Shown here: positions 36,795-50,564 of the stretch, in pieces | Position numbering within the stretch: the first letter of the stretch is position 1 | Layout of the letters: every line of letters begins with the position of its first letter | Source: a virus | IMG/VR virus record: IMGVR_UViG_3300017917_002814 | Location: 62,001-126,000 of that record | DNA: 64,000 nucleotides | Reading direction: 5' to 3' (one strand) | Position numbers and translations under genes: made by a program | The notes under the pieces: generated by a model | Seen by the model: the letters and a program-made list of their open reading frames with translations, nothing else | Told to the model about the DNA's origin: nothing | Database searches by the model: none

Positions 36795-37229
36795 TTATTT
36801 TAGAGTTGATCTCAGCATCCAACTATGTTTGGCATGAGCGTCTTGACGATCTGCTAGGAAATTGCTTAAACCGTGCATGCCCAGTTCTTCAGCAGCCATG
36901 AATACAATATGAAACATTTCTTTCATTCGATCACTATCTTGCAAAAGTTCTAATAACATTGACTCAGCAGGCAAGATTTCTGTTTCGTCGTCTACTAGAC
37001 TCAAAATACTAAATCTTGTAAATGAACCTGGTGTGTATGCTCCAGTTGCTCTAATTTCTTCCGCAAATTTATCAATACTGCCATATACTTCTTCGTAGAT
37101 GTTACCAAATAGTTCGTGATACTGTGGAAAGTTGGGTCCTTCTACATTCCAATGAAAGTAGTGTGCTTTAAGATAAAAAGCATATTCGCTTGCAAATGCA
37201 ATTTTAAGAGCTTGTTTCAGTGCGTCCAT
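36795..37229 (-). CDS. Dps-like ferritin-fold protein
   Basis: The 144-residue protein has the Dps signature with ferroxidase ligands: AHYFHWNVEGPNFPQYHELF (about 22-41) followed by IDKFAEEIRATG (about 52-63). Dps forms a dodecamer that stores iron, detoxifies peroxide and shields DNA. No basic DNA-binding tail is visible at either end. A GATAAATA box lies 19 bases before the ATG. A phage copy may guard DNA against oxidative damage during infection or in the particle. Confidence 0.85.
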   Translation of the reverse strand: MDALKQALKIAFASEYAFYLKAHYFHWNVEGPNFPQYHELFGNIYEEVYGSIDKFAEEIRATGAYTPGSFTRFSILSLVDDETEILPAESMLLELLQDSDRMKEMFHIVFMAAEELGMHGLSNFLADRQDAHAKHSWMLRSTLK

Positions 37230-37256: not shown

Positions 37257-37398
37257 TGCCCTGACCTCGATAGGCCTTATGAGCTCGACGTATACTTTTG
37301 TTCATTGTACTAGTTTTGGCTCTACGTCCGCCTTGACTGGTCATTTTGACCACATGTGCTATAAGTTTTTTATTTGTTGATTGACTGGGTTTGGCCAT
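37252..37398 (-). CDS. 48-residue basic protein, conserved in T4-like phages
   Basis: This short gene has a strong AAGGAG site and overlaps the upstream gene by 29 bases. It encodes 48 very basic residues ending in TSTMNKSIRRAHKAYRGQGR. I know the closing pattern TSxMNKxxxRxxxxYRGQG from small genes of T4-like aquatic phages. Nucleic-acid binding or packaging inside the head is plausible from charge. Confidence 0.65.
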   Translation of the reverse strand: MAKPSQSTNKKLIAHVVKMTSQGGRRAKTSTMNKSIRRAHKAYRGQGR

Positions 37399-38056
37399 TA
37401 TTTTCTCCTTGAATATTAGATTGCTCGTACATCACTGTGTCTGTGTCACCCAGACGCCATTTAGGATTTTGCTCTACTACATACTTTCGAGTACAAACTC
37501 GGAAATCTGGAAATTTCATGTCTCGTGGGTTGCTAGCAGCATCAAAAAATAAACACCTATTGTTGGGTTGTGCTGCGTACTGTCCGTTGTCTAATTCTAT
37601 AAAATTGAAACTTTTGTGATCTTCGGGCCATTCGCTGTATCCGGTGTCAATGATATTGTGATTGGGATGAGCATGATCTACGGTAAACATGTAATTGCCC
37701 GAGTACATGTTTTTGTCTTTGGCGTAAAACTTACAGCTTAAATTTCGCAAGAATGCTTTCTGTATTACTGTCATGTCGTAATCAAAACAATCCCAAATTT
37801 GTAATGTATCTAAAGATAAAAATTTATCTGGTTCAAGACTGTCTGTACGAGACACAAAAGCATGCAAAGGCAGCTTGTCGTATAATGCGCCATAGTTGGG
37901 AAGATAGGCTTCGATTCTAAAGGCTTGGCCTCTTATGCTTTTTAATGACACCCAAATGCATGGTTCGTATTCGCCATGGCCTTGTTCAAAATCATATAAA
38001 AACTCTTTGCGTATATAACAATGAACTGGTGGTACGTTAGCTACTAAAAATGACAT
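37370..38056 (-). CDS. Conserved phage protein, unknown
   Basis: The 228-residue protein is rich in aromatic residues and looks beta-rich, with FRIEAYLPNYGALYDKLP, GNYMFTVDHAHPNHN and SEWPEDHKSFNFIEL. It ends in a Gln/Asn-rich tail. It is conserved in T4-like aquatic phages as I recall, but no function is known. A structural role is possible given its neighbours. Confidence 0.6.
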   Translation of the reverse strand: MSFLVANVPPVHCYIRKEFLYDFEQGHGEYEPCIWVSLKSIRGQAFRIEAYLPNYGALYDKLPLHAFVSRTDSLEPDKFLSLDTLQIWDCFDYDMTVIQKAFLRNLSCKFYAKDKNMYSGNYMFTVDHAHPNHNIIDTGYSEWPEDHKSFNFIELDNGQYAAQPNNRCLFFDAASNPRDMKFPDFRVCTRKYVVEQNPKWRLGDTDTVMYEQSNIQGENNGQTQSINK

Positions 38057-38071
38057 TGATTGAACTCATGG

Positions 38072-38650
38072 TTATTGATCTTTTTTTGGTGTTAAAATGT
38101 TTTTAAAAAAAGTTTCAATTGGCCCGCCTTGCTTGGTAGCATCTCTCGCCATTTCATATCCAAGTTCGGTTGGACCTGAAGCTCTTTTTCTAAGTGTATT
38201 AAAACCATTTGCGATATCAAGAATGCGTCGTGCTGTACTTGGCTCTTGCTGTTGATCTGCCGGTGGTTGTAGTTCAGGAATGCCTTGTTCTTTCATGCTG
38301 CGTGTTTTGGTGGCCACATTTCGTGCAGGACCGCGGCGTTCTGGATTGGGATCTTCTCTACGCTTTTTGGCTGCTGAGCTGGCACGACCTTTCTTTCCTA
38401 GTGCATGTGCCTTGCTGGCTGGCAAACACTTGGGTTTACCTTCGCCCTCGCTGCGTCCCCCACACTCGCCGCGAATCTTGCCGTCGGGTCCAAATCTTAC
38501 CCATTTCTCACGAAACCACTTTTTTAAATCTTCTTCAAGTTCTTGTTCGCTCATCCGGACACAGTTAGGTACCTGACGGTCACCTTTTTTCTTCATGCCT
38601 TGTTGTTGATAGCCTTTCCAACAAGCTTCTAAGAGTTCTCTATATTTCAT
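38072..38650 (-). CDS. DUF5872-type basic protein with capsid-targeting-like N-terminus
   Basis: The 192-residue protein begins MKYRELLEA, with an L-x-E site (Leu6, Glu8) like T4 gp21 protease sites. Residues about 45-115 form a basic Cys/Gly motif region (WVRFGPDGKIRGECGG, KCLPASKAHALGKKGR, KKRREDPNPERRG) matching DUF5872, seen also in giant viruses. The C-terminal part is helical. It follows the 874-residue protein by ATGA overlap. Likely a virion or head-interior protein; this is inference. Confidence 0.65.
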   Translation of the reverse strand: MKYRELLEACWKGYQQQGMKKKGDRQVPNCVRMSEQELEEDLKKWFREKWVRFGPDGKIRGECGGRSEGEGKPKCLPASKAHALGKKGRASSAAKKRREDPNPERRGPARNVATKTRSMKEQGIPELQPPADQQQEPSTARRILDIANGFNTLRKRASGPTELGYEMARDATKQGGPIETFFKNILTPKKDQ

Positions 38651-41271
38651 TTTTTGCTTTTGTTACCCCAATTGGCTGCACCTTTTTTACGGCATCGTAC
38701 TAAGGCACCTGATGCATAGGCTGACGGCCATACCTTGTAACGACTTTTCACTTTGTGATAGCAGGCATCTTGTTTTTCTGCAAGCATACGATCGCTGTAA
38801 GCAGTACCACCACATTCGGGACACAAGGTTGCTGTTTCTGTTACTATTTCATATCCTGCACGACGCATTTCCTCTAGATACTGTTCAACATCTTCGTTGG
38901 CATAATTCATTTTGGTCGTTCTAGCGTTCGGAGTATACATTTGTTTTACTGATGCTACTTTTCTGTTGGGATTTTGAGCTACAACACTACCAAGAACTAC
39001 TTCATTGCTGGGTCCTGATCCTTGTTCATGATTAGCTTTTATAACTTTTTTCTTACCGTCTTTAAATGTCACTTCCCAACTGCTAGTAACTTGTTTGGCT
39101 TCGTTGACACCATACTTCTTCTTTAGTTCTGCTTGCCGAGCATGGCGCTCTTGATCATTCTCAATGTCATACGACTTTGCAAACTCTTTATAATATTCAG
39201 GATCAGGTGCACCACGCTTTTTACGCAGCTCTTGAAAACGACGATCTAGTTTTTCTCTAGCTGAAGCTTCGTTAGTTGGTTTAGATTGCTCATAATCTTT
39301 AACTGTTTGACGCAATTCTTTTTTTGCTTCAGGGGACAGTTGAGCTTTGGTATCAGTGGAGGGCTTGGTATAATCAACGGCTTTAACTGTTTGTCTTAAA
39401 GATTGTTTTTCTTGATCAGACAATTTTTTATCTTCCGATGTTGGTTCTTTTGGCTGTGGCCTTGGTTGAGGTGCTCGAGGAATTTCTGGTATGTCAAACC
39501 CGCCTTCGCGCATGGCTGAGATACGCTGCTCTGCAATCATGATCAAGTCGCGCATTTCCTCAACACTCTCACAGTTCCATCTACGTAGCGCCTTGTTGAT
39601 TGGACTATCGGGATCTCTTTTTGTCTTGGCTCCAGCGTGTGCCCGCTTCATGCCGCTCATTCTGGCACAAAAACTTTTGCGACGCTTGGCACTCTTTGAC
39701 CCTTTTTTTAGTTTACTTGGCTTGGTGGTCACTGCTGTTTGCAATTTACTGCCTGGGTTTTCTCGACGATACGCTTTAACTGCTTTGCGACTCATTCCTG
39801 GAGTCCGGTCTTTGCGATTTACTTTTTTCCAATCTTCCGCCACACCTTGTTCGTCTAATGGTTCATCACCAATGGTAGGACGATACTCTTGAGGTTCAAG
39901 GCCTCGTATGGCTCTATAAGCTGCATCTAAAATTTCCATCTTTGTTGGATGGTCGAGCCCTTTATACCAAGGTTGTTCTTGCAATTGATCAAACACATCT
40001 TTGCGTTCTGCATTAGAAAAATCTTCTTCGTAGTCCCAATAGGTAAATGATACCTTCTTGCCTTCGATATCTAAAGTCAAATGCATTTGATCTAGGTCGT
40101 AATCTTGATCAACAACACTTATGTCTTCCGCCACATCTTTAACTACACGAGCAACACCAACCCGTTGGTCTTTAGGCTCTATGGGTTGCCGACCACGCTC
40201 TTGTTCTCGACGCTTTTGTGCAGCAAGATCTGCCACACTACCTTTTCTAGGCTTCTTGGCACCGTATGAGAAAGGCCCTGCTTCGGCTACAGGATTCTTA
40301 CCTATATGCCACCCACGACCAGGCCCATAATCATTGGGAGTTGGCAAATCATAATATTGTTTGTAAAGTGTGTCCCATTCAGGATGTCCAGGTTCTACAA
40401 TATATGGTTCGCCATAGTTTAGGTCTAATTCAAAAGCCGTGCCGGCGTCTCTGATCTCGTAGTAGTGCGGAAAGCGACCAAGTTCGGATCCTTGTTGTTG
40501 TAAAGTATCTTCGTCAGGAACGTCATCTTCTTGCACCGGCTGCTGCGGAACTATATCTATTTTTGCATTTTTAGGTACAATGGTGTTAATGGTCAACTCA
40601 TCACCAAAATCTCTGCTGGTGTCCAATGCTCTGACACGTTGGTTTCCTGACTTATCTGTGCTTACTGATGCTACTCGATGTTTATAATTTTCATCACCAT
40701 CTTTGTTAGTAAGAGTTCTTATGCTTTGTACGTATGAGGTATGCGGAGACTTATCATCAAATTCTTCTGTTTCTTGCACTGGTTGATCAGCATATTGACC
40801 AAAATGTTGTTGCTGTTGTTGATAGTTAGCTGCTCTCTCAGCATCGCTATAGCCTTGACCGGATGCCATTCTTTGGGAGTAGTCAGCCATTTTTTCTGGA
40901 GTCCAGTTCTTGGCTTTATAGTCGGCCATGCTCTGTTTATAATCAGCACTGGACATACTACCTATTTTAGATATACGTGTGCTTCCGTCTGGTTGTGTTT
41001 TTGCTTCCCAGCCTTGTGGTACATTAAGGGGAGCTTGTTCATCGACTTCCTTGCGTTTATTAGATAAAACAGATCTTATCCAAAAACTTTCAGTCGCTTG
41101 GTGACTGTCAAATGGACCACCTTTGATACTATAATTTTTTTCTTCGGCATAAGCTTTAGCTGTCTTGCCCACAGGTTTTCGCATGATCATGGGCCGACCA
41201 CGCTGGTCATACACAGCATAATATTCTTCGTTGCTGTTTTCTGTTATTTTAAATAAATCATTTATAAACAT
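38647..41271 (-). CDS. Large low-complexity virion-type protein with DUF6321-like motif
   Basis: The 874-residue protein begins MFINDLFKITEN, a capsid-targeting-like peptide with an I-x-E site at residue 11. Most of it is polar low-complexity sequence with Gln runs. Residues 527-567 hold a basic motif (RRKSFCARMSGMKRAHAGAK, then SPINKALRRWNC) resembling DUF6321, and the C-terminal 40 residues hold YHKVKSRYKVWPSAYASGAL and a Cys/Arg tail, both of kinds shared with giant-virus proteins. Two imperfect copies of LRQTVKxxDY lie near 640-690. A packaged, DNA-contacting protein is inferred. Confidence 0.65.
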   Translation of the reverse strand: MFINDLFKITENSNEEYYAVYDQRGRPMIMRKPVGKTAKAYAEEKNYSIKGGPFDSHQATESFWIRSVLSNKRKEVDEQAPLNVPQGWEAKTQPDGSTRISKIGSMSSADYKQSMADYKAKNWTPEKMADYSQRMASGQGYSDAERAANYQQQQQHFGQYADQPVQETEEFDDKSPHTSYVQSIRTLTNKDGDENYKHRVASVSTDKSGNQRVRALDTSRDFGDELTINTIVPKNAKIDIVPQQPVQEDDVPDEDTLQQQGSELGRFPHYYEIRDAGTAFELDLNYGEPYIVEPGHPEWDTLYKQYYDLPTPNDYGPGRGWHIGKNPVAEAGPFSYGAKKPRKGSVADLAAQKRREQERGRQPIEPKDQRVGVARVVKDVAEDISVVDQDYDLDQMHLTLDIEGKKVSFTYWDYEEDFSNAERKDVFDQLQEQPWYKGLDHPTKMEILDAAYRAIRGLEPQEYRPTIGDEPLDEQGVAEDWKKVNRKDRTPGMSRKAVKAYRRENPGSKLQTAVTTKPSKLKKGSKSAKRRKSFCARMSGMKRAHAGAKTKRDPDSPINKALRRWNCESVEEMRDLIMIAEQRISAMREGGFDIPEIPRAPQPRPQPKEPTSEDKKLSDQEKQSLRQTVKAVDYTKPSTDTKAQLSPEAKKELRQTVKDYEQSKPTNEASAREKLDRRFQELRKKRGAPDPEYYKEFAKSYDIENDQERHARQAELKKKYGVNEAKQVTSSWEVTFKDGKKKVIKANHEQGSGPSNEVVLGSVVAQNPNRKVASVKQMYTPNARTTKMNYANEDVEQYLEEMRRAGYEIVTETATLCPECGGTAYSDRMLAEKQDACYHKVKSRYKVWPSAYASGALVRCRKKGAANWGNKSKK

Positions 41272-41272
41272 A

Positions 41273-42211
41273 TTACATTGCCTGCCTTCTTAATTCTGCA
41301 ACTTGTTTTACTAAATCTGCTATCTGACGTTTAATATCGTTTCTCTGTGCTGTCATTTGCTGCAAACTCATGGTCTTTTCAACTGGATTTGCACCTTGTG
41401 GAAATTGCTTGTTTATGTCTGCCAATTGCCGTCTCAGGCCTGTAATTTGTGCCACTAGTGCTGCTATCTGCCCTTGTATTTGTTGTTTACCTGCTTTTCT
41501 TTCTTGTGCTTTGGCAAATTCTTCTGCAGGATTTCTAGCAGTGTCATTGCCGATCCCTGAGCCAGGAGCGCCGTATTCGGAGATAGGAGTTTCGTTTTCG
41601 CCCCACTCCGGCCACCTTAGGCCTTTGGGATTCCGCGGATCTGCAGGAGGTACCATTACATCCTGTGGTTGTTTTGGTTCTTCGGGTTTGAATTCTTTAG
41701 CAGATCCGGGTTGGTAGGGATTGTTCTCCAGATTTTGTTTCAATTGTTGAAACATTTTTTCTGCCTGAGGACTCTGTGGTGCATATCCTCCTGTGATCTT
41801 ACGAACTTCGTCATACCAAGCACCGCTGTACTTTTTAAGTTGTATACGTTTATCTACACCTTGAATATGTCCAGGTGGAACGATAATTTCCCATCCGTGA
41901 ATATTTGTAGGGTCATTGGGGTCAGCGTGAATTTCAATGCCTTCATTGACTTCCAGATCCTGTTTGTATTCTTGCCATTCTTGAAACAGATCTCGTTTGA
42001 CAGGATTACTGTTTATAACCTGACTCAATTCTTTAAGCAAGCTGTTGGACTCTTCAACACTTTCGGCTGCACCATCGCCTACCATTCGACTGCGAGATTT
42101 CTTTGCACTGTCCTTGCCCCGCCAGTATCCAGGCCATTTAGGACCTGTTGGTTTACGCTCAGCTGATGACATGCTGTCCATTTTCTCCAACAGGTTTTTT
42201 ATATTGCTCAT
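41273..42211 (-). CDS. Polar low-complexity protein with C-terminal coiled coil
   Basis: The 312-residue protein begins MSNIKNLLEK (L-x-E site at residue 9) followed by a basic Gly/Trp motif (GPKWPGYWRGKDSAKKSRSR) near 23-43. The middle is Pro/Gln-rich; the last 75 residues are a clear coiled coil (IAALVAQITGLRRQLADI). It is coupled to the upstream gene by ATGA. Probably a virion protein with its neighbours; not recognised by name. Confidence 0.6.
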   Translation of the reverse strand: MSNIKNLLEKMDSMSSAERKPTGPKWPGYWRGKDSAKKSRSRMVGDGAAESVEESNSLLKELSQVINSNPVKRDLFQEWQEYKQDLEVNEGIEIHADPNDPTNIHGWEIIVPPGHIQGVDKRIQLKKYSGAWYDEVRKITGGYAPQSPQAEKMFQQLKQNLENNPYQPGSAKEFKPEEPKQPQDVMVPPADPRNPKGLRWPEWGENETPISEYGAPGSGIGNDTARNPAEEFAKAQERKAGKQQIQGQIAALVAQITGLRRQLADINKQFPQGANPVEKTMSLQQMTAQRNDIKRQIADLVKQVAELRRQAM

Positions 42212-43464
42212 CTGTCGTAAACGCCTTTTCCTACAGCCACTTTTTTCTGTTTGTAGGTATTGCCAACTTTTTTAGGTACACCTGATGTTGGCTTATGACC
42301 GGGACCACCTATACTGGTAGCAACAGCACCAGCTGAGCTTGCTCCACCTGTGGCGCTTTCTTTAACAGATTCTTTTTTTTCAAAATACAAAGATCTTTTA
42401 TTTTTTTCAAAAGGATTCATACCACCGCCACCACCGCCACCACCGCCACCACCCATACCTCTGCCGCCTGATGGTCTTGAACTTTTGTACATCGGACCTC
42501 CTAGTGCGTCTGTGGCAGTGTTTGGAAGTCCTAATTTACCTGCCGCTCTTTGAATCAACGATGGAGGATTTGGATTACCTCTTACAACTTCACCTCCCGA
42601 TCTTATTACATCTCCTCTAGCGTTTCTTCCTTGATAATTTCTAGCACTATCATAACGTTCTTCTTCTCGGCGTGCAGCTAGATCTCTTTCTTCTCCGGTT
42701 TCGCCCATTTCGTTTACAGGCTCATCACTTTCGTATTGCATTGGACGGAAGCGACGATTAGCAAGATCAAACATACTCATGCCTCCTCCACCACCACCGC
42801 TGCCACCACCAAATCTAGTAGCTGGAATTTTGCTCACTCGAGGGACACCTTCTGGTCGTTCTACTCTACTAGCTTTTCCGCCTCCTACTAACTGTCCGCT
42901 TTGAGTGAAATCTCTTACCCCCGCACCTTGCGGTCCACTAGGGCCGGTCCTTTTTGCTCCAGGCAGTCCTTCGTCGCCTAGATTACTAGGAATGTTTCTT
43001 TGTGCATATCTTTGTAAGTCAGGATTGATTTCTCCTTTTGGCGCACTCATTATTCTATCTCTAGGACGTGAAGGAGCATATCCTTTTTCTGGATCTACAT
43101 AATCCCCACCTGGTTTGTGAACTTTAATTGGATCATCGTCGTCTTCGGCCAACAAACTTTCAATTGCATAATCAGCAGCACCTTCAGCAAACGCCATCAT
43201 TTCTGGTTCTTGACTAACAGCTTCATATTTCATGTAGTCTCGCACACTTTCTAGGTACTGGCTTGCTAGTGTAAGCTTGCTTTGTACCCAACCTTCAAGT
43301 CCTTCCATTTCACTCACATCTCGAAGCAGTTTATGTATTTCAATTGCCGCTTGTGCTGCCGAATACATTTGACTTCTAGCCATTTGCACTTCATGGTCTC
43401 TATGCATGTCATCTGCTTCTTGTGCAATAATACTGTTTTCTACTATGAATTCTGCTGGTTTCAT
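42208..43464 (-). CDS. Gly-rich virion-type protein with conserved helical domain
   Basis: The 418-residue protein begins MKPAEFIVEN, with an I-x-E site at residue 9. Residues 22-80 form a helical domain (VQMARSQMYSAAQAAIEIHK, MEGLEGWVQSKLTLAS) that I know from T4-like phage structural proteins. The rest is low-complexity with two poly-Gly runs (one of 11 residues). A late-type box precedes the gene. Likely a head or tail component. Confidence 0.65.
   Translation of the reverse strand: MKPAEFIVENSIIAQEADDMHRDHEVQMARSQMYSAAQAAIEIHKLLRDVSEMEGLEGWVQSKLTLASQYLESVRDYMKYEAVSQEPEMMAFAEGAADYAIESLLAEDDDDPIKVHKPGGDYVDPEKGYAPSRPRDRIMSAPKGEINPDLQRYAQRNIPSNLGDEGLPGAKRTGPSGPQGAGVRDFTQSGQLVGGGKASRVERPEGVPRVSKIPATRFGGGSGGGGGGMSMFDLANRRFRPMQYESDEPVNEMGETGEERDLAARREEERYDSARNYQGRNARGDVIRSGGEVVRGNPNPPSLIQRAAGKLGLPNTATDALGGPMYKSSRPSGGRGMGGGGGGGGGGGMNPFEKNKRSLYFEKKESVKESATGGASSAGAVATSIGGPGHKPTSGVPKKVGNTYKQKKVAVGKGVYDR
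42419..42456 (-). repeat. Triplet repeat coding for poly-Gly
   Basis: The plus strand shows repeats of accaccgcc-type triplets, giving 11 glycines in the minus-strand protein. Such tracts can change length by replication slippage in frame. Confidence 0.7.
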
Positions 43465-43485
43465 CTTGTTTTCCCGATAATGTAA

Positions 43486-43493
43486 TATTTATT
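43486..43493 (-). promoter_or_regulatory. Late-type promoter box (AATAAATA)
   Basis: The minus strand reads AATAAATA 21 bases before the ATG at 43464, overlapping the last codons of the upstream gene. It would drive the run of virion-type genes from 43.4 to 38.1 kb. Confidence 0.4.
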
Positions 43494-43815
43494 GTTGTGT
43501 ATGATTTAACATATTGTCGACTATAAAACGCCATTCAATTTCTAAATCATTGGTTTTAAGTAAATTTTTATTCACTGTTGTGTTGTTTACCTTAAAATTA
43601 TCAATTTCAAACCGTGCGTTTCTGTCTAAATTTTCTAACTTGAACGTATGTACTCCAGTATCTAAATCACAGAATAGATGCTCTTTGATATAATTTTGAT
43701 AACTAGGCCAGCCAAAAGTGCGTTCGGTTAGCATTTCTCCATTTACATAAAGCCTATAAACTGGTGGGTCGATGCTCCAATGGCTGTACACATCAACCTC
43801 CAATTTGGTATGCAT
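43489..43815 (-). CDS. Beta-sandwich, carbohydrate-binding-like protein
   Basis: Start at ATG 43815, fused to the upstream stop as TAATG; 108 residues. VYRLYVNGEMLTERTFGW, then CDLDTGVHTFKLENL and FEIDNFKVNN, resemble the strands of small xylan-binding-type carbohydrate modules. The protein at 45056-45538 has the same layout. They flank the nucleotidyltransferase gene. Binding of a glycan is inferred from fold pattern only. Confidence 0.55.
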   Translation of the reverse strand: MHTKLEVDVYSHWSIDPPVYRLYVNGEMLTERTFGWPSYQNYIKEHLFCDLDTGVHTFKLENLDRNARFEIDNFKVNNTTVNKNLLKTNDLEIEWRFIVDNMLNHTQQ

Positions 43816-45026
43816 TATTTTTTCCTGCCTTGACAATGGGCTCGCTGACTAAAACCTCGAGGATTGTTACAATTTATACTACGCTTATACTTTGCGCTCC
43901 ATTTTTCCCTTAGTGTTGCAATTTGTTCTTGCAATTGTTCTACACTGTCAGCCAGATGCATTTTCTTTAGTTGGCGACCAACTTCACCAGGACGAATATC
44001 CTGTGTAAGACTGTGACTGTATCTTGGATCTTGAGCTTGTTTTTTATTTGCAATTACTCCCACCCCTGCTGCTTCTTCATAAAAACGATTCTGAATCCTC
44101 ATCTTTGTTCCAGGCTCGTTGTCAACCCAGTCATAGGGATTGCCCATTTCTTTAGGCTTATATGGATCGGCTATTATTTTATTACCAAGCTCTGTTTTTA
44201 AAGTATTTGATTGAAAATCGCCGGGCATGTCTATGGTTTTGGTATCCCACGGTTTCTTCGCATCAACTACATTATCTTGTTTTGCAGGATATTTGCCGGT
44301 ATTGTATTTGTCGTGTTTGTACAATTTGTATGCAGCCTGACCTGTAGCTTGTTGTAACGGTGTTAGTTCCGGGTCCTGGTCTTCGTTGACAGTCTGCGGA
44401 ATTTTGTCTAGTATACGACCAATTTCGGCATCATCACGACCATACATTTGCAATAAATATTCTGCCCTAGATTTAGGATCGTCTCTTACTGCGTTCCATG
44501 CTGCTCGAGCGGGTGTGCCGTGACTAACATCCACTGGTCGACCATTGATTTTAATTACCTTTTGACGCTCGTCGGCTATGATCACATATCCGTGCTTATC
44601 AGCAGTGGCGCATTTATCCAAGCTTTCAAATGTTTTAAAATAACCTGGACTGCCATCTTTTTTAACGCTGTCGGGACGAAGTCTATCACGGTCAGGTGAG
44701 CCCACTGCTGCTACAAAAATAGTGTTAGCGGGATTGAATTGCGGTTCTGGGAGCTTGTAGGGATTGGTTACTTCAATGATACGATCACTGGGTACACCAG
44801 CTGCATTCATTAGAACTGTTTTGTCGGAAAAATTAAATGGGCTTTTGGGGAGTTCTACTTTGTTGCTGGTAGCAATATATACATTATCTCGACCAAATTT
44901 GTTTTGTAAACTGCGGAATACTTCGCCGTGACCAAGATGAAAAGGTTGAAACCGACCCGGGTATAACACTACCAACTGCGGGCCGGCTTCTGCTACATAT
45001 GTTTCAAATAAATCAGCAATAAACAT
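43815..45026 (-). CDS. Nucleotidyltransferase (NMNAT/NadM-like) with capsid-targeting-like N-terminus
   Basis: The 403-residue protein begins MFIADLFETYVAEAG, then a nucleotidyltransferase domain with PGRFQPFHLGH (about 23-33) carrying the HxGH motif that binds ATP phosphates. SPDRDR and a later basic region follow. Known relatives adenylylate NMN or similar nucleotides. The C-terminus (KYKRSINCNNPRGFSQRAHC) is a Cys/Arg motif also found at the end of other T4-like phage proteins. The N-terminal peptide has V-x-E followed by Ala at residues 11-14, so packaging in the head and cleavage is possible. Substrate not proven. Confidence 0.75.
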   Translation of the reverse strand: MFIADLFETYVAEAGPQLVVLYPGRFQPFHLGHGEVFRSLQNKFGRDNVYIATSNKVELPKSPFNFSDKTVLMNAAGVPSDRIIEVTNPYKLPEPQFNPANTIFVAAVGSPDRDRLRPDSVKKDGSPGYFKTFESLDKCATADKHGYVIIADERQKVIKINGRPVDVSHGTPARAAWNAVRDDPKSRAEYLLQMYGRDDAEIGRILDKIPQTVNEDQDPELTPLQQATGQAAYKLYKHDKYNTGKYPAKQDNVVDAKKPWDTKTIDMPGDFQSNTLKTELGNKIIADPYKPKEMGNPYDWVDNEPGTKMRIQNRFYEEAAGVGVIANKKQAQDPRYSHSLTQDIRPGEVGRQLKKMHLADSVEQLQEQIATLREKWSAKYKRSINCNNPRGFSQRAHCQGRKK

Positions 45027-46712: not shown

Positions 46713-47435
46713 TTATTTATTATCCAAGCATACTAGCTCAGAAACTTCTCTAATAATATCTGGGTTGATTAAAGTGATAAATGTTGCTACGTGTTTGTCG
46801 TTGGAATAAAAATATGAACCCCAGATCCAATCATGTGGTTTGCTCAAACTTTCTTTGGTATGATCATTTATTCTAATTAAATCACCCAGACTGTTTAGAT
46901 AATTCAATATCTGTGTTCTAGTTTCAAAATTAAACTGTTTTTCTTTAAACCAAATTCTGTATCGATATTTGGGAGGTTTTTTAACAAGCACTACGTGTTT
47001 GTCTAGTAGTGTTTTTATTTCTTCATTTTCTGGTCCAACAATAGATATAATTTTGTCCTTGTGGTCAGGATCAATTGATTCGGCAACTGATTTGATCATT
47101 AATTCGTCTTCTGCATACACAGAAAGTTTTGGTTCTTCAGTACGAATTTTTACGTCAGGATACTCATAGTAAAGATTACTTAGACCATGTAAAAATCCAA
47201 CATCAGCTTCTTTTAAATACTTGTACAATTGTTTGTTGTACCAGGATCCTTGACGTTTATAATCTCGCACCCAACTTTGTCGTTTATCAAGGTCAACAGC
47301 TATATTTTCACACCTAATACTTTTACAACCCGGAGCATACAAGTCAAGTCGATAATAATATTGATTGTAAAATTGCTTGGATGATGATAATACTTTAATA
47401 TTCGGAGATAGGTTCTTCCAGAACAATGTATCCAT
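46713..47435 (-). CDS. Conserved phage protein, unknown
   Basis: The 240-residue protein begins inside the end of clpA (41-base overlap). It is rich in Tyr, Lys and Asp with YRYRIWFKEKQFNF near the middle and KPHDWIWGSYFY near the C-terminus. No family recognised. The AATAAATA box at 46714-46721 lies inside its stop region. Confidence 0.6.
   Translation of the reverse strand: MDTLFWKNLSPNIKVLSSSKQFYNQYYYRLDLYAPGCKSIRCENIAVDLDKRQSWVRDYKRQGSWYNKQLYKYLKEADVGFLHGLSNLYYEYPDVKIRTEEPKLSVYAEDELMIKSVAESIDPDHKDKIISIVGPENEEIKTLLDKHVVLVKKPPKYRYRIWFKEKQFNFETRTQILNYLNSLGDLIRINDHTKESLSKPHDWIWGSYFYSNDKHVATFITLINPDIIREVSELVCLDNK
46714..46721 (-). promoter_or_regulatory. Late-type promoter box (AATAAATA)
   Basis: The minus strand reads AATAAATA 25 bases before the 56-residue gene at 46518-46688; an AAGGA site lies between. 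Confidence 0.45.
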
Positions 47436-49689
47436 TTTCGTCTATTCTATGTTGAAAGTTTGATGTTTCTGCTGTTTGAAATTCAAATTTGTTATTACAG
47501 TAATCTACTATAACAGTAGTTCCTGCTACAATATTTTCAAAAAGTATTTTTTTGCTAAGTGGAACTTTAATTGTGTCATTTATTTTCCTTTGTAATGGTC
47601 TTGCTCCCATTTTACTATCAAACCCATTTACAATAAGTTCATCAACTGCTTTTTCTGTCAACCTCACACGCAATTGTTTTTCTAATAGTAAATCATTAAG
47701 TTCAGTGACAAATTTGTTTACAATTTTACGCATACTCAATTTGTCTAAGCGATTAAATTTAATTACTCCATCTAGTCTATTTCTAAATTCAGGTTTAAAG
47801 AAATCCTTTACAGCACGATCATCTTCACCTGTTTTTTCAAGTGCAGTAGTAAATCCCATTGTGTTTTTTTCGTTGTCGGCGGCGCCTAGATTTGATGTTA
47901 AAATAATTATTGCATTTCTACAATCTGCTTTTTTACCATTACTACTGGTTACTGTGCCTTCATCCATCATTTGTAATAAAATATTACTGACGTCAGGGTG
48001 CGCTTTTTCAATTTCATCCATTAAAATTATACAATTTGGATTTTTTTCTATGTCAGAAATTAGCAGACCACCAGCCAAGTTTCCGTCATCGTAACCAACA
48101 TACCCCGGGGGAGCACCAATGAGTTTGGCAACTGTGTGTCTTTCCTGATATTCACTCATGTCATACCTGAGTAATTGCATACCAAGACATTGCGATAATA
48201 GTTTTGCTAGTTCTGTTTTTCCTGTTCCGGTGGGGCCTAAAAATAGGAAATTTCCTACTGGTTTATTAAGAGATTTTAATCCAGCACGGCTAACATAAAT
48301 TTTTTCGAGTACACTTTCTACAGCTGAATCTTGACCATACAACTTGTCTTTAATTTTAGATTCTAAATTATCAATTACTCCTGATTCTTTGTTATTATAC
48401 GTACCAATCTGATCTATAGGAATTTTGGTAATTCTGCTTAAAGCATTGATAATATCTCCTTTAGACACAGTCCAACTTGTATTTTTAATTTTGTGTTTAG
48501 CACAGCAGGCATCAATCAAATCAATAGCTTTATCTGGAAGCTTTTTATCAGTTTGATATCTAATAGATAAATCAACAGCAGCATCAATTGCTTCGTTAGA
48601 AATAGATCCACCGTGAAACTTTTCAAAATTAAATTTTAAACCATACAAAATTTCTTTCGCAGTTTCTGCACTTGGTTCATTTATGGTGATACGTTGAAAT
48701 CTACGCATCAATGCTCGATCTTTTTCAAAGCTCTGTGTGTATTCTTCCCAAGTGGTTGATGCAATGACTTTGATCTTGCCTTTACTCAAGGCTGGTTTGA
48801 TCATGTTACTGAAATCAACACTGCTTTGACTGCCGGCGCCGGCACCTCGCATTTGATGTGCTTCGTCAATAAACAAAATAGCATTGCCTTTGGTGTTCAA
48901 TGCTGCTATAATTTCTTGAATTTTTTCTTCGAAATCTCCGCGATATTTACTGCCCGCCAACAGACTACCGATATCTAGATTATAAACAGTAAAGTCTTGA
49001 AGATATTGTGGTACAGTTTTTGTTACAATTGCCAATGCTAACCCTTCGGCAATGGCAGTTTTACCAACACCCGGATCGCCTACCATTAGTACATTTGATT
49101 TATTTCTACGTGCTAAAATTTCAATGATATCATCTGTTTCGTGTTTGCGTCCAATAACAGGGTCAATTTTTCCTTCTTTGGCAAGGGTGTTTAAATTGTC
49201 GCAATAATGTTCTAAAATTTTATCTGCTCGATCGGTGTTGACAATGGCTTTACCAGATTCTGGTTTATAATTTTTATTATATAGTTCTACTAATTTGCCA
49301 CGATCCAAGCCGTATTTGACCATAAAATAATGGGCATAACTATTATTTTCTGCATGAATACTAAGAAACAAATCTAATAGTTCGATCTGTTTTCTAGAGC
49401 TAAACAAAACTTGCGTAAATGCTCTGTTGAACACTCTTTCCAAACTATGTGTTTTTTTTGGTTCTAAATCTGTAACTATTAAATTTGTGGCCTGTAACAA
49501 GTAACTTTCTAATTCGGCGTCAAGTCCGTCGGTGTCTGTTCCAAATTGGATTAATAAATTTTTAAACGGTTCGAATCTTATCATTGACAAAAAAACATGT
49601 TCCAAGGTCACGTATTCGTGACTTAGTTCTTTAGCCAATTGAGTTGCCTCAATTACAATATGATCAATTTCTGGATTGGTTTGTAGCAT
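47395..49689 (-). CDS. clpA: ClpA-like AAA+ unfoldase
   Basis: The 764-residue protein has a Clp N-domain (residues 1-140), a first AAA+ module with GDPGVGKT (204-211) and ILFIDEAHQM, and a second with GPTGTGKT (485-492) and CIILMDEIEKAH. There is no ClpB-type middle coiled coil, so it is ClpA-like. A loop MGF at 611-613 sits where ClpA has its IGL ClpP-docking motif and fits the hydrophobic-Gly-Phe/Leu consensus, so it could engage host ClpP. No clpP is in this window. It follows dnaJ directly and may be leaderless. Confidence 0.92.
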   Translation of the reverse strand: MLQTNPEIDHIVIEATQLAKELSHEYVTLEHVFLSMIRFEPFKNLLIQFGTDTDGLDAELESYLLQATNLIVTDLEPKKTHSLERVFNRAFTQVLFSSRKQIELLDLFLSIHAENNSYAHYFMVKYGLDRGKLVELYNKNYKPESGKAIVNTDRADKILEHYCDNLNTLAKEGKIDPVIGRKHETDDIIEILARRNKSNVLMVGDPGVGKTAIAEGLALAIVTKTVPQYLQDFTVYNLDIGSLLAGSKYRGDFEEKIQEIIAALNTKGNAILFIDEAHQMRGAGAGSQSSVDFSNMIKPALSKGKIKVIASTTWEEYTQSFEKDRALMRRFQRITINEPSAETAKEILYGLKFNFEKFHGGSISNEAIDAAVDLSIRYQTDKKLPDKAIDLIDACCAKHKIKNTSWTVSKGDIINALSRITKIPIDQIGTYNNKESGVIDNLESKIKDKLYGQDSAVESVLEKIYVSRAGLKSLNKPVGNFLFLGPTGTGKTELAKLLSQCLGMQLLRYDMSEYQERHTVAKLIGAPPGYVGYDDGNLAGGLLISDIEKNPNCIILMDEIEKAHPDVSNILLQMMDEGTVTSSNGKKADCRNAIIILTSNLGAADNEKNTMGFTTALEKTGEDDRAVKDFFKPEFRNRLDGVIKFNRLDKLSMRKIVNKFVTELNDLLLEKQLRVRLTEKAVDELIVNGFDSKMGARPLQRKINDTIKVPLSKKILFENIVAGTTVIVDYCNNKFEFQTAETSNFQHRIDENGYIVLEEPISEY

Positions 49690-49694
49690 AAAAA

Positions 49695-49702
49695 TATTTA
49701 TT
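49695..49702 (-). promoter_or_regulatory. Late-type box (AATAAATA) directly before clpA
   Basis: The minus strand reads AATAAATA ending 5 bases before the clpA ATG and overlapping the dnaJ stop. If used as a T4-type late promoter, transcription would begin at the ATG. There is no Shine-Dalgarno. Confidence 0.4.
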
Positions 49703-50564
49703 GATTAAAGAATAATTTTTTTAATGTGGTTTGTTGCTCTGCTGTAATACTGGTTGGAACATTTATTTTAACATTAATAAACAAGGAACCCCTAACATTT
49801 TGATTCATTGCATATAACCCTTGATCTGGTATCCTAAATTTAGTATTAGGTTGTGTTCCTTGCGGTATGTTTAATTCGAAAATTTTTCCATCTAGACCTT
49901 GTACGCTGCTTAAACAACCTACCATGGCTTGAATACAATCAATTTCTATTGTTTTATGTAAATCAAGATGATTTACATTAAACTCGGTGTTGGCTTCAAT
50001 TTGTATTTTTACATATAAGTCTCCTCTTGGCAGAGTTGAAAAAAAGTTATCACCTAGACCGGAATATTTTACAGTTGAGCTAGGAGTTACACCTCGAGGA
50101 ATATTCACTTCAACCGGATAACTATCGCCATTGGTAGTTTTTACATTGATAATTTTTGTTTGATTTTCAAGCGTACTAGCAAGACTGATTACTATTTCAA
50201 TTTGTATATCTTTGTTTTTTCTTGGTTGTCTAAAGTGTGAAAACGGATCACCATGCCCGGCAAAGCCCTGCCCAAAAGCAAAACCAAAATTGCGTAACAT
50301 TTCTTCCATTTCTGGGGGCATGCCACCACCGACATCATGCCCGTTTACTGTAAATCTAAAACCACCAGTACCACGGCGCTCTGCGTCATATTGTGCTCTT
50401 TTATTTTGATCACTGATTGTTTCGTAGGCTGCTTGAATCTGCTGGAATCTATTGGTGTCACCGCCTTTGTCTGGGTGATGCTGATTTGCCAGTTTACGGT
50501 ATGCCTTTTTAATTTCATCTAAACTGGCGTTTTCAGAAACTCCTAAGGTATCGTAGTGTGTCAT
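49698..50564 (-). CDS. DnaJ/CbpA-type J-domain co-chaperone
   Basis: The 288-residue protein has an N-terminal J-domain (residues 3-65) with the HPD motif in HHPDKGG, a Gly/Phe-rich segment, and the two C-terminal substrate-binding domains. The DnaJ zinc finger is absent, so it is of the CbpA type. It would deliver substrates to host DnaK. Its ATG lies exactly 6 bases after a TATAAT, so its mRNA is predicted to be leaderless. clpA follows at once. Confidence 0.9.
   Translation of the reverse strand: MTHYDTLGVSENASLDEIKKAYRKLANQHHPDKGGDTNRFQQIQAAYETISDQNKRAQYDAERRGTGGFRFTVNGHDVGGGMPPEMEEMLRNFGFAFGQGFAGHGDPFSHFRQPRKNKDIQIEIVISLASTLENQTKIINVKTTNGDSYPVEVNIPRGVTPSSTVKYSGLGDNFFSTLPRGDLYVKIQIEANTEFNVNHLDLHKTIEIDCIQAMVGCLSSVQGLDGKIFELNIPQGTQPNTKFRIPDQGLYAMNQNVRGSLFINVKINVPTSITAEQQTTLKKLFFNQ

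Follow-up and report, generated by a model that had tools for sequence, protein, structure and literature searches.

The question raised by this locus is whether neighbouring genes whose products begin with the same kind of short peptide encode proteins destined for the phage head. The window (the whole stretch of DNA analysed, 64,000 nucleotides) comprises bases 62001–126000 of IMG/VR record IMGVR_UViG_3300017917_002814, which is 137,412 bases long. The source is a T4-like environmental phage, and the family-B DNA polymerase of the record has its nearest matches in jumbo T4-like phages, among them Phosso and Atu_ph07 (∼46–50% identity). On the minus strand, between positions 38072 and 45026, lie four genes, numbered 1 to 4 below, and a nucleotidyltransferase gene, and their products start MKYRELLE/A (38650), MFINDLFKITE/N (41271), MSNIKNLLE/K (42211), MKPAEFIVE/N (43464) and MFIADLFETYVAE/A (45026), a slash marking the end of each peptide, or tag. 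We consider it likely that this block is cargo loaded into a T4-like prohead, partly in the form of polyproteins that a gp21-type protease would cut at the borders of short modules.

N-terminal peptides of the five proteins

In phage T4, gp21 cleaves after L/I-X-E, and residues 4, 7, 8 and 10 of the IPIII peptide govern both targeting and processing (PMC9026906). The T4 sequence itself reads MKTYQEFIAE/A in IPIII and SFLTE/A in gp23. The letters and coordinates of all five starts given in a preliminary description of this DNA are correct on re-reading, and short amphipathic N-terminal peptides with an L/I/V-x-E end are present in all five proteins. They agree with a capsid-targeting sequence, an amphipathic peptide of ∼10 residues followed by L/I-x-E, with slight departures in the use of V-x-E and in length (8–13 residues). 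The five genes, described as adjacent, are five tagged genes among six neighbours, but they do not stand strictly in a row because a motif-free gene of 115 amino acids (aa) separates gene 4 from the nucleotidyltransferase gene.

An L/I/V-x-E near the start was rejected as evidence on its own; it is too common, being found in 27 of the 151 genes of the record and in 11% of internal Met windows. A strict pattern (a hydrophobic pair at about residues 5–8 plus L/I/V-x-E) occurs in nine of the 151 genes, five of which lie within these six consecutive genes, and in 1.5% of internal Met windows. This pattern was composed after the five N-termini had been seen, and the weight therefore rests on conservation in relatives and on independent phages. 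Applied to T4 (an imperfect control; IPIII is cut off in the locus), it marks 8 of 117 open reading frames (ORFs), including gp21, gp22 and gp24, and misses IPI.

The tags are too short to serve as homology queries, and DNA patterns were used instead to find relatives. The order nucleotidyltransferase–gene 4–gene 3–gene 2–gene 1, with at least four of the five families, is present in 55 fetched loci on at least 25 distinct contigs. For gene 2, among 18 proteins with MF[IVL]xD[LIF]F starts (a set from which PGRF-type nucleotidyltransferases were left out), the start MF[IV]xDxF, also written MF[IV]NDxF, is kept with a mean identity of 70% over residues 2–8, and the bodies behind it are swapped, ∼90% of pairs being without similarity over residues 15–80. 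Gene 2 relatives range in length from ∼150 to 874 aa. The preliminary description proposed a check of whether only the first 10–15 residues are conserved, and for gene 2 this is so; in gene 1, gene 3, gene 4 and the enzyme, conservation extends past the tag into the adjoining segment. The typical start among gene 1 relatives (n=87 with distinct N-termini) is [KR]xx[EQ][LI]LE[AS]CW, an MSxxxxLLEKM-type start is retained in most gene 3 relatives (n=19), and the nearest relatives of gene 4 have an MKxxxFIxE-like start.

Small proteins with a further type of start were seen in another T4-like group, G008 and G009 (L106:12415-15528 and L107:3963-4727), in which several unrelated small proteins by the major capsid gene begin MKSFIKKLLRE-like; these starts are perhaps another dialect of the same head tag.

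Mobile modules behind gp21-type sites

The larger feature, overlooked in the preliminary description, is a set of mobile basic modules that start at gp21-type sites. Modules A to F are short, carry a net positive charge and have two nearly invariant cysteines in every type, which may act as a disulfide, a metal site or a dimer contact. The proteins that hold them are unrelated, and include kinase-like, nucleotidase-like, ParB-like and methyltransferase-like proteins and long cyanophage chains (domain names assigned mostly by eye). Across eight unrelated module types, and wherever in the chain the module sits, [LIVMF]-x-E stands immediately before it in 315 of 374 distinct contexts, compared with a background of 2.1% for all positions of these proteins; these are counts rather than probabilities, since the contexts are related by descent and not phylogenetically independent, and the borders were picked by eye after inspection. 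The motif precedes module A in 70 of 71 contexts, at N-terminal, internal and C-terminal positions alike, module D in 55/58, module E in 30/36, module C in 25/30, module F in 62/79, module B in 61/86, and each of two smaller types in 6/7. Modules and tags also occur together: the N-terminal motif is found in 32 of 73 clusters of module proteins and in 156 of 1885 neighbour clusters (odds ratio 8.7, p=4e-15).

Two Pfam entries are matched, one of them weakly. Module C of gene 2 matches DUF6321 (PF19846; E=8.8e-10, 39.5 bits, above the gathering cut-off of 28.5), and gene 1 matches DUF5872 (PF19197) weakly, at 16.5 bits and below the cut-off of 27.5 for membership. An AlphaFold model of gene 1 (modules F and D) is of low confidence (predicted local distance difference test, pLDDT, 53), and Foldseek returned no match for it at E ≤ 0.001; the best sub-threshold matches are mostly other DUF6321/DUF5872 and cyanophage proteins and give no clue to the fold. 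A DHEVxMAxSQL segment like the domain of gene 4 is found, by eye, inside cyanophage polyproteins.

Proteins packaged in the head through their N-terminal peptides could lose these peptides only, with [LIVMF]xE being a conserved helix or linker and the modules staying joined as multi-domain internal proteins. Module A is indeed predicted to be helical straight across its border, as this would have it. However, the unrelated modules have exactly the P3 and P1 residues in common and little else upstream, and domain insertions in nucleotidyltransferase relatives sit right behind the site (TVNE/, TMNE/; methyltransferase-like in L030). We regard joined modules as unlikely.

A role of the modules inside the infected cell, as mobile DNA-, RNA- or metal-binding domains attached to various enzymes and having no part in the particle, would suit their basic charge and two conserved cysteines, and also their joining (by eye) to kinase-like, nucleotidase-like, ParB-like and other domains. 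It is improbable in view of two virion proteomes in which module proteins are present. In S-SCSM1, modules D, B, F and C occur in gp029, whose annotation is that of a virion protein. Two S-CREM2 proteins detected in particles have modules at the same kind of border, namely gp160, with modules F and B (B after ISE/), and gp137, with module C at its end after MNE/. No S-CREM2 protein besides gp160 and gp137 matched the module patterns searched.

Evidence from virion proteomes

Cytidylyltransferase/nicotinamide mononucleotide adenylyltransferase (NMNAT) enzymes have been reported in the particle proteomes of S-SM1 (PMC3037559), S-SCSM1 (PMC9602691), S-SZBM1 (PMC9146016) and S-CREM2 (PMC10665884). 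These virion-detected enzymes start MKKFSAFLNE/A in S-SM1, MKSFLQFLKE/A in S-SCSM1, MRFRQFIIE/A in S-SZBM1 and MKNFSSFLTE/A in S-CREM2, all resembling the start of T4 IPIII. The S-PM2 enzyme, GC190, has a different start that is without the peptide, and it was counted as undetected in the S-PM2 virion (PMC3037559); this absence lends only weak support because the study missed other structural proteins too. Using a pattern built from the T4 positions alone, we found matches in 5 of 26 non-structural or hypothetical virion proteins of S-CREM2, compared with 1 of 167 undetected and none of 26 structural proteins (Fisher p=1.7e-4). The five are the SAM hydrolase, the APH kinase, the cytidylyltransferase, gp13 and gp136. 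The main text of the S-CREM2 report (PMC10665884) contains no mention of N-terminal, targeting, internal protein or cleav-.

With relatives of both the modules and the enzyme found in purified cyanophage particles, the window proteins probably enter the head together with the DNA, and there is good indirect support for their packaging through a T4-like capsid-targeting sequence. The preliminary claim that the five proteins are packed in the head and may be injected is supported in part, by module homologues and superfamily enzymes with T4-like N-termini in particles of four cyanophages and by tags kept on changing bodies; presence in the phage's own virion and injection into the host are predictions. 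The nearest large relative, G001, combines the cargo block (L028) with a head module in the T4 order gp20-gp21-gp22-gp23, where gp21 is a Peptidase_S77 and gp22 and gp23 have L-x-E sites.

Several observations weigh against packaging and cleavage as proposed here, in addition to the choice of borders by eye and the shared descent of contexts. About 29% of module B contexts are without the site. The published virion proteomes are tryptic identifications that do not define mature N-termini, and the detections concern homologous modules and superfamily enzymes of other phages rather than the window phage or its IMG/VR relatives. Two relatives of the window enzyme, L036 and L056, are without the N-terminal peptide and begin directly at the nucleotidyltransferase domain, and the window enzyme can be aligned with the S-SCSM1 NMNAT at the nucleotide-binding motif only. 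Searches of the 137-kb record with the Pfam families Peptidase_S77 and Gp23 found neither gp21 nor gp23; the same searches matched in no control genome, so that absence from the record is not proven. Finally, the authors of the S-CREM2 and S-SCSM1 studies caution that abundant proteins may carry over (PMC10665884, PMC9602691).

Such carry-over, combined with a loose motif that is common, could mean that unrelated intracellular proteins simply begin in this way and resemble capsid-targeting sequences by chance. This is very improbable: the N-termini are conserved on swapped bodies, the S-CREM2 matches are enriched among non-structural virion proteins relative to the 167 undetected ones, tags and modules are associated as described above, enzymes that begin in a similar manner were detected in virions four times independently, and S-PM2 GC190 is both without the peptide and undetected.

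The nucleotidyltransferase

The enzyme, named a nucleotidyltransferase in the preliminary description, has an HxGH-type nucleotidyltransferase fold; the PF01467 match is above the cut-off, and a GRFQPFHLGH motif is invariant at the core among relatives. Its match to TIGR01527 (E=2.5e-6, 27 bits) is far below the NMNAT cut-off of 181, and we therefore file it as NMNAT-like only. Foldseek gives nicotinic acid mononucleotide adenylyltransferases as top matches, weakly (E ∼1e-3), and by sequence comparison the window enzyme is only a superfamily relative of the virion-detected NMNATs. In the AlphaFold model, residues 1–12 are disordered (pLDDT <50) and the domain starts at residue 17.

Some relatives have extra domains. 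The methyltransferase-like insertion in L030 (3698-5101) stands immediately after TMNE/, and the relatives in L311 and L317 are chains of 1142 and 1038 aa.

A proposed route for head cargo

We propose that the capsid-targeting-type peptide would bind the scaffold core and bring the chain into the prohead, where the gp21-type prohead protease of the phage would remove it after L/I/V-x-E. Several of the chains are polyprotein-like, and cleavage by the same protease would probably take place as well where [LIVMF]-x-E borders the small basic two-cysteine modules; once free, the modules would be internal head peptides and remain with the DNA in the head. The nucleotidyltransferase, in all probability NMN adenylyltransferase-like, would be an enzyme carried as cargo and passed on with the genome when the phage infects. 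Targeting, cleavage, module release, DNA association and injection are all put forward by inference. More broadly, and with somewhat less than even confidence, we suggest that T4-like phages of water bodies share a kit of small basic modules with two cysteines each, exchanged among proteins at the sites of the prohead protease; freed in the head, the modules would neutralise or cross-link DNA, and enzyme cargo on the same chains would be delivered into the host, the whole forming a polyprotein system for head contents.

The parallels to known systems are partial. T4 IPI-III and Alt likewise have a short amphipathic N-terminal peptide ending in L/I-x-E and a variable body that differs between phages, whereas the window tags, 8–13 residues long, precede longer chains of several modules as well as an NMNAT-like enzyme, and their cleavage is predicted only. 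The T4 core proteins gp22, gp67 and gp68 are also single chains with many L/I-x-E sites that gp21 cuts into pieces (PMC9026906), but the window pieces are basic two-cysteine modules reshuffled among unrelated proteins and not scaffold. The cyanophage virion cytidylyltransferase/NMNAT (T4-GC190) is of the same superfamily as the window enzyme and has a T4-like N-terminal tag, although the window enzyme differs in its C-terminal module A. In the giant phages SPN3US and phiKZ, head cargo is trimmed after a short x-x-E by the prohead protease; that of SPN3US cuts after A-X-E (PMC10052503), and no such modules are described in either phage.

Capsid targeting, gp21 sites and a virion-borne cyanophage cytidylyltransferase are already known. 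The preliminary description knew of no report of this set, but part of its inference is not new, virion-associated NMNAT/cytidylyltransferase having been reported in the four proteomes cited above. The literature searched held no link between these enzymes and a T4-type tag, and no mobile modules with prohead-protease sites at their borders. There, capsid targeting and cyanophage were joined only in one T4 review and DUF6321 was not named, neither of which is proof of novelty. The DUF6321 and DUF5872 entries carry no function, and that these domains stand behind prohead-protease sites is a new observation. Numerous 'hypothetical' genes of abundant cyanophages and relatives (DUF6321, PHROG 727 and others) would be predicted to encode head cargo, with the cleavage sites predicted exactly. 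The tag would give a sequence-based reason for the presence of an NMNAT-like enzyme, a kinase and a SAM hydrolase in cyanophage virion proteomes, and the T4 capsid-targeting rule would apply to a modular system that is widespread.

Features of the locus and neighbouring genes

Table 1. Genes, tags and modules of the putative cargo block (positions in the window).
Feature	Position	Strand	Basis or remark
Gene 1, 192 aa: tag MKYRELLE, module F, module D (DUF5872-like)	38072..38650	-	ORF; PHROG 727/23735/4359
Capsid-targeting-like N-terminal peptide of gene 1, site LLE/A right against module F	38627..38650	-	sequence
Module F (ACWKGYQQQGMKKKGDRQVPNCV...) in gene 1	38546..38626	-	
Module D (DLKKWFREKWVRFGPDGKIRGECGG...) in gene 1	38288..38530	-	
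Gene 2, polyprotein-like, 874 aa: tag MFINDLFKITE, several segments bounded by [LIV]xE, module C, CPECGG ribbon, module B	38647..41271	-	
N-terminal peptide MFINDLFKITE of gene 2	41239..41271	-	kept among relatives
Module C (DUF6321) in gene 2, after VAE/	39556..39834	-	
Module B (KQDACYHKVKSRYKVWPSAYASGALVRC...), end of gene 2, after LAE/	38650..38775	-	
Gene 3, 312 aa: tag MSNIKNLLE, PGYWRGKDSAKKSRSRMVGD segment	41273..42211	-	ORF
N-terminal peptide MSNIKNLLE of gene 3	42185..42211	-	
Gene 4, 418 aa: tag MKPAEFIVE, domain with DHEVQMARSQ, tail rich in Gly	42208..43464	-	ORF
N-terminal peptide MKPAEFIVE of gene 4	43438..43464	-	
Intervening 115-aa gene without N-terminal motif, outside the set	43489..43836	-	ORF
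Nucleotidyltransferase gene, 403 aa, NMN-adenylyltransferase-like	43815..45026	-	PF01467 E=9e-6
N-terminal peptide MFIADLFETYVAE of nucleotidyltransferase, outside the fold	44988..45026	-	AlphaFold
Module A (KWSAKYKRSINCNNPRGFSQRAHCQGRKK), C-terminal end of nucleotidyltransferase, after LRE/	43818..43904	-	

Right beside the cargo block, at window positions 36795-37229 and 37370-38056, are a Dps/ferritin-like protein (PF00210) and a PHROG 3704 protein labelled 'ferredoxin'; the latter resembles, by eye, S-SCSM1 gp012, which is annotated as a virion structural protein. A phage ClpB-like AAA+ protein and a DnaJ-type chaperone lie side by side at 47395-50564. Outside the window, at L006:9938-10489 (record positions 133938-134489), there is an Fe/Mn superoxide dismutase with the N-terminal extension MRELIDLTEDKQKLELKK, which has an [LIV]-x-E start, and it adjoins a gene for an Fe-S biosynthesis protein.
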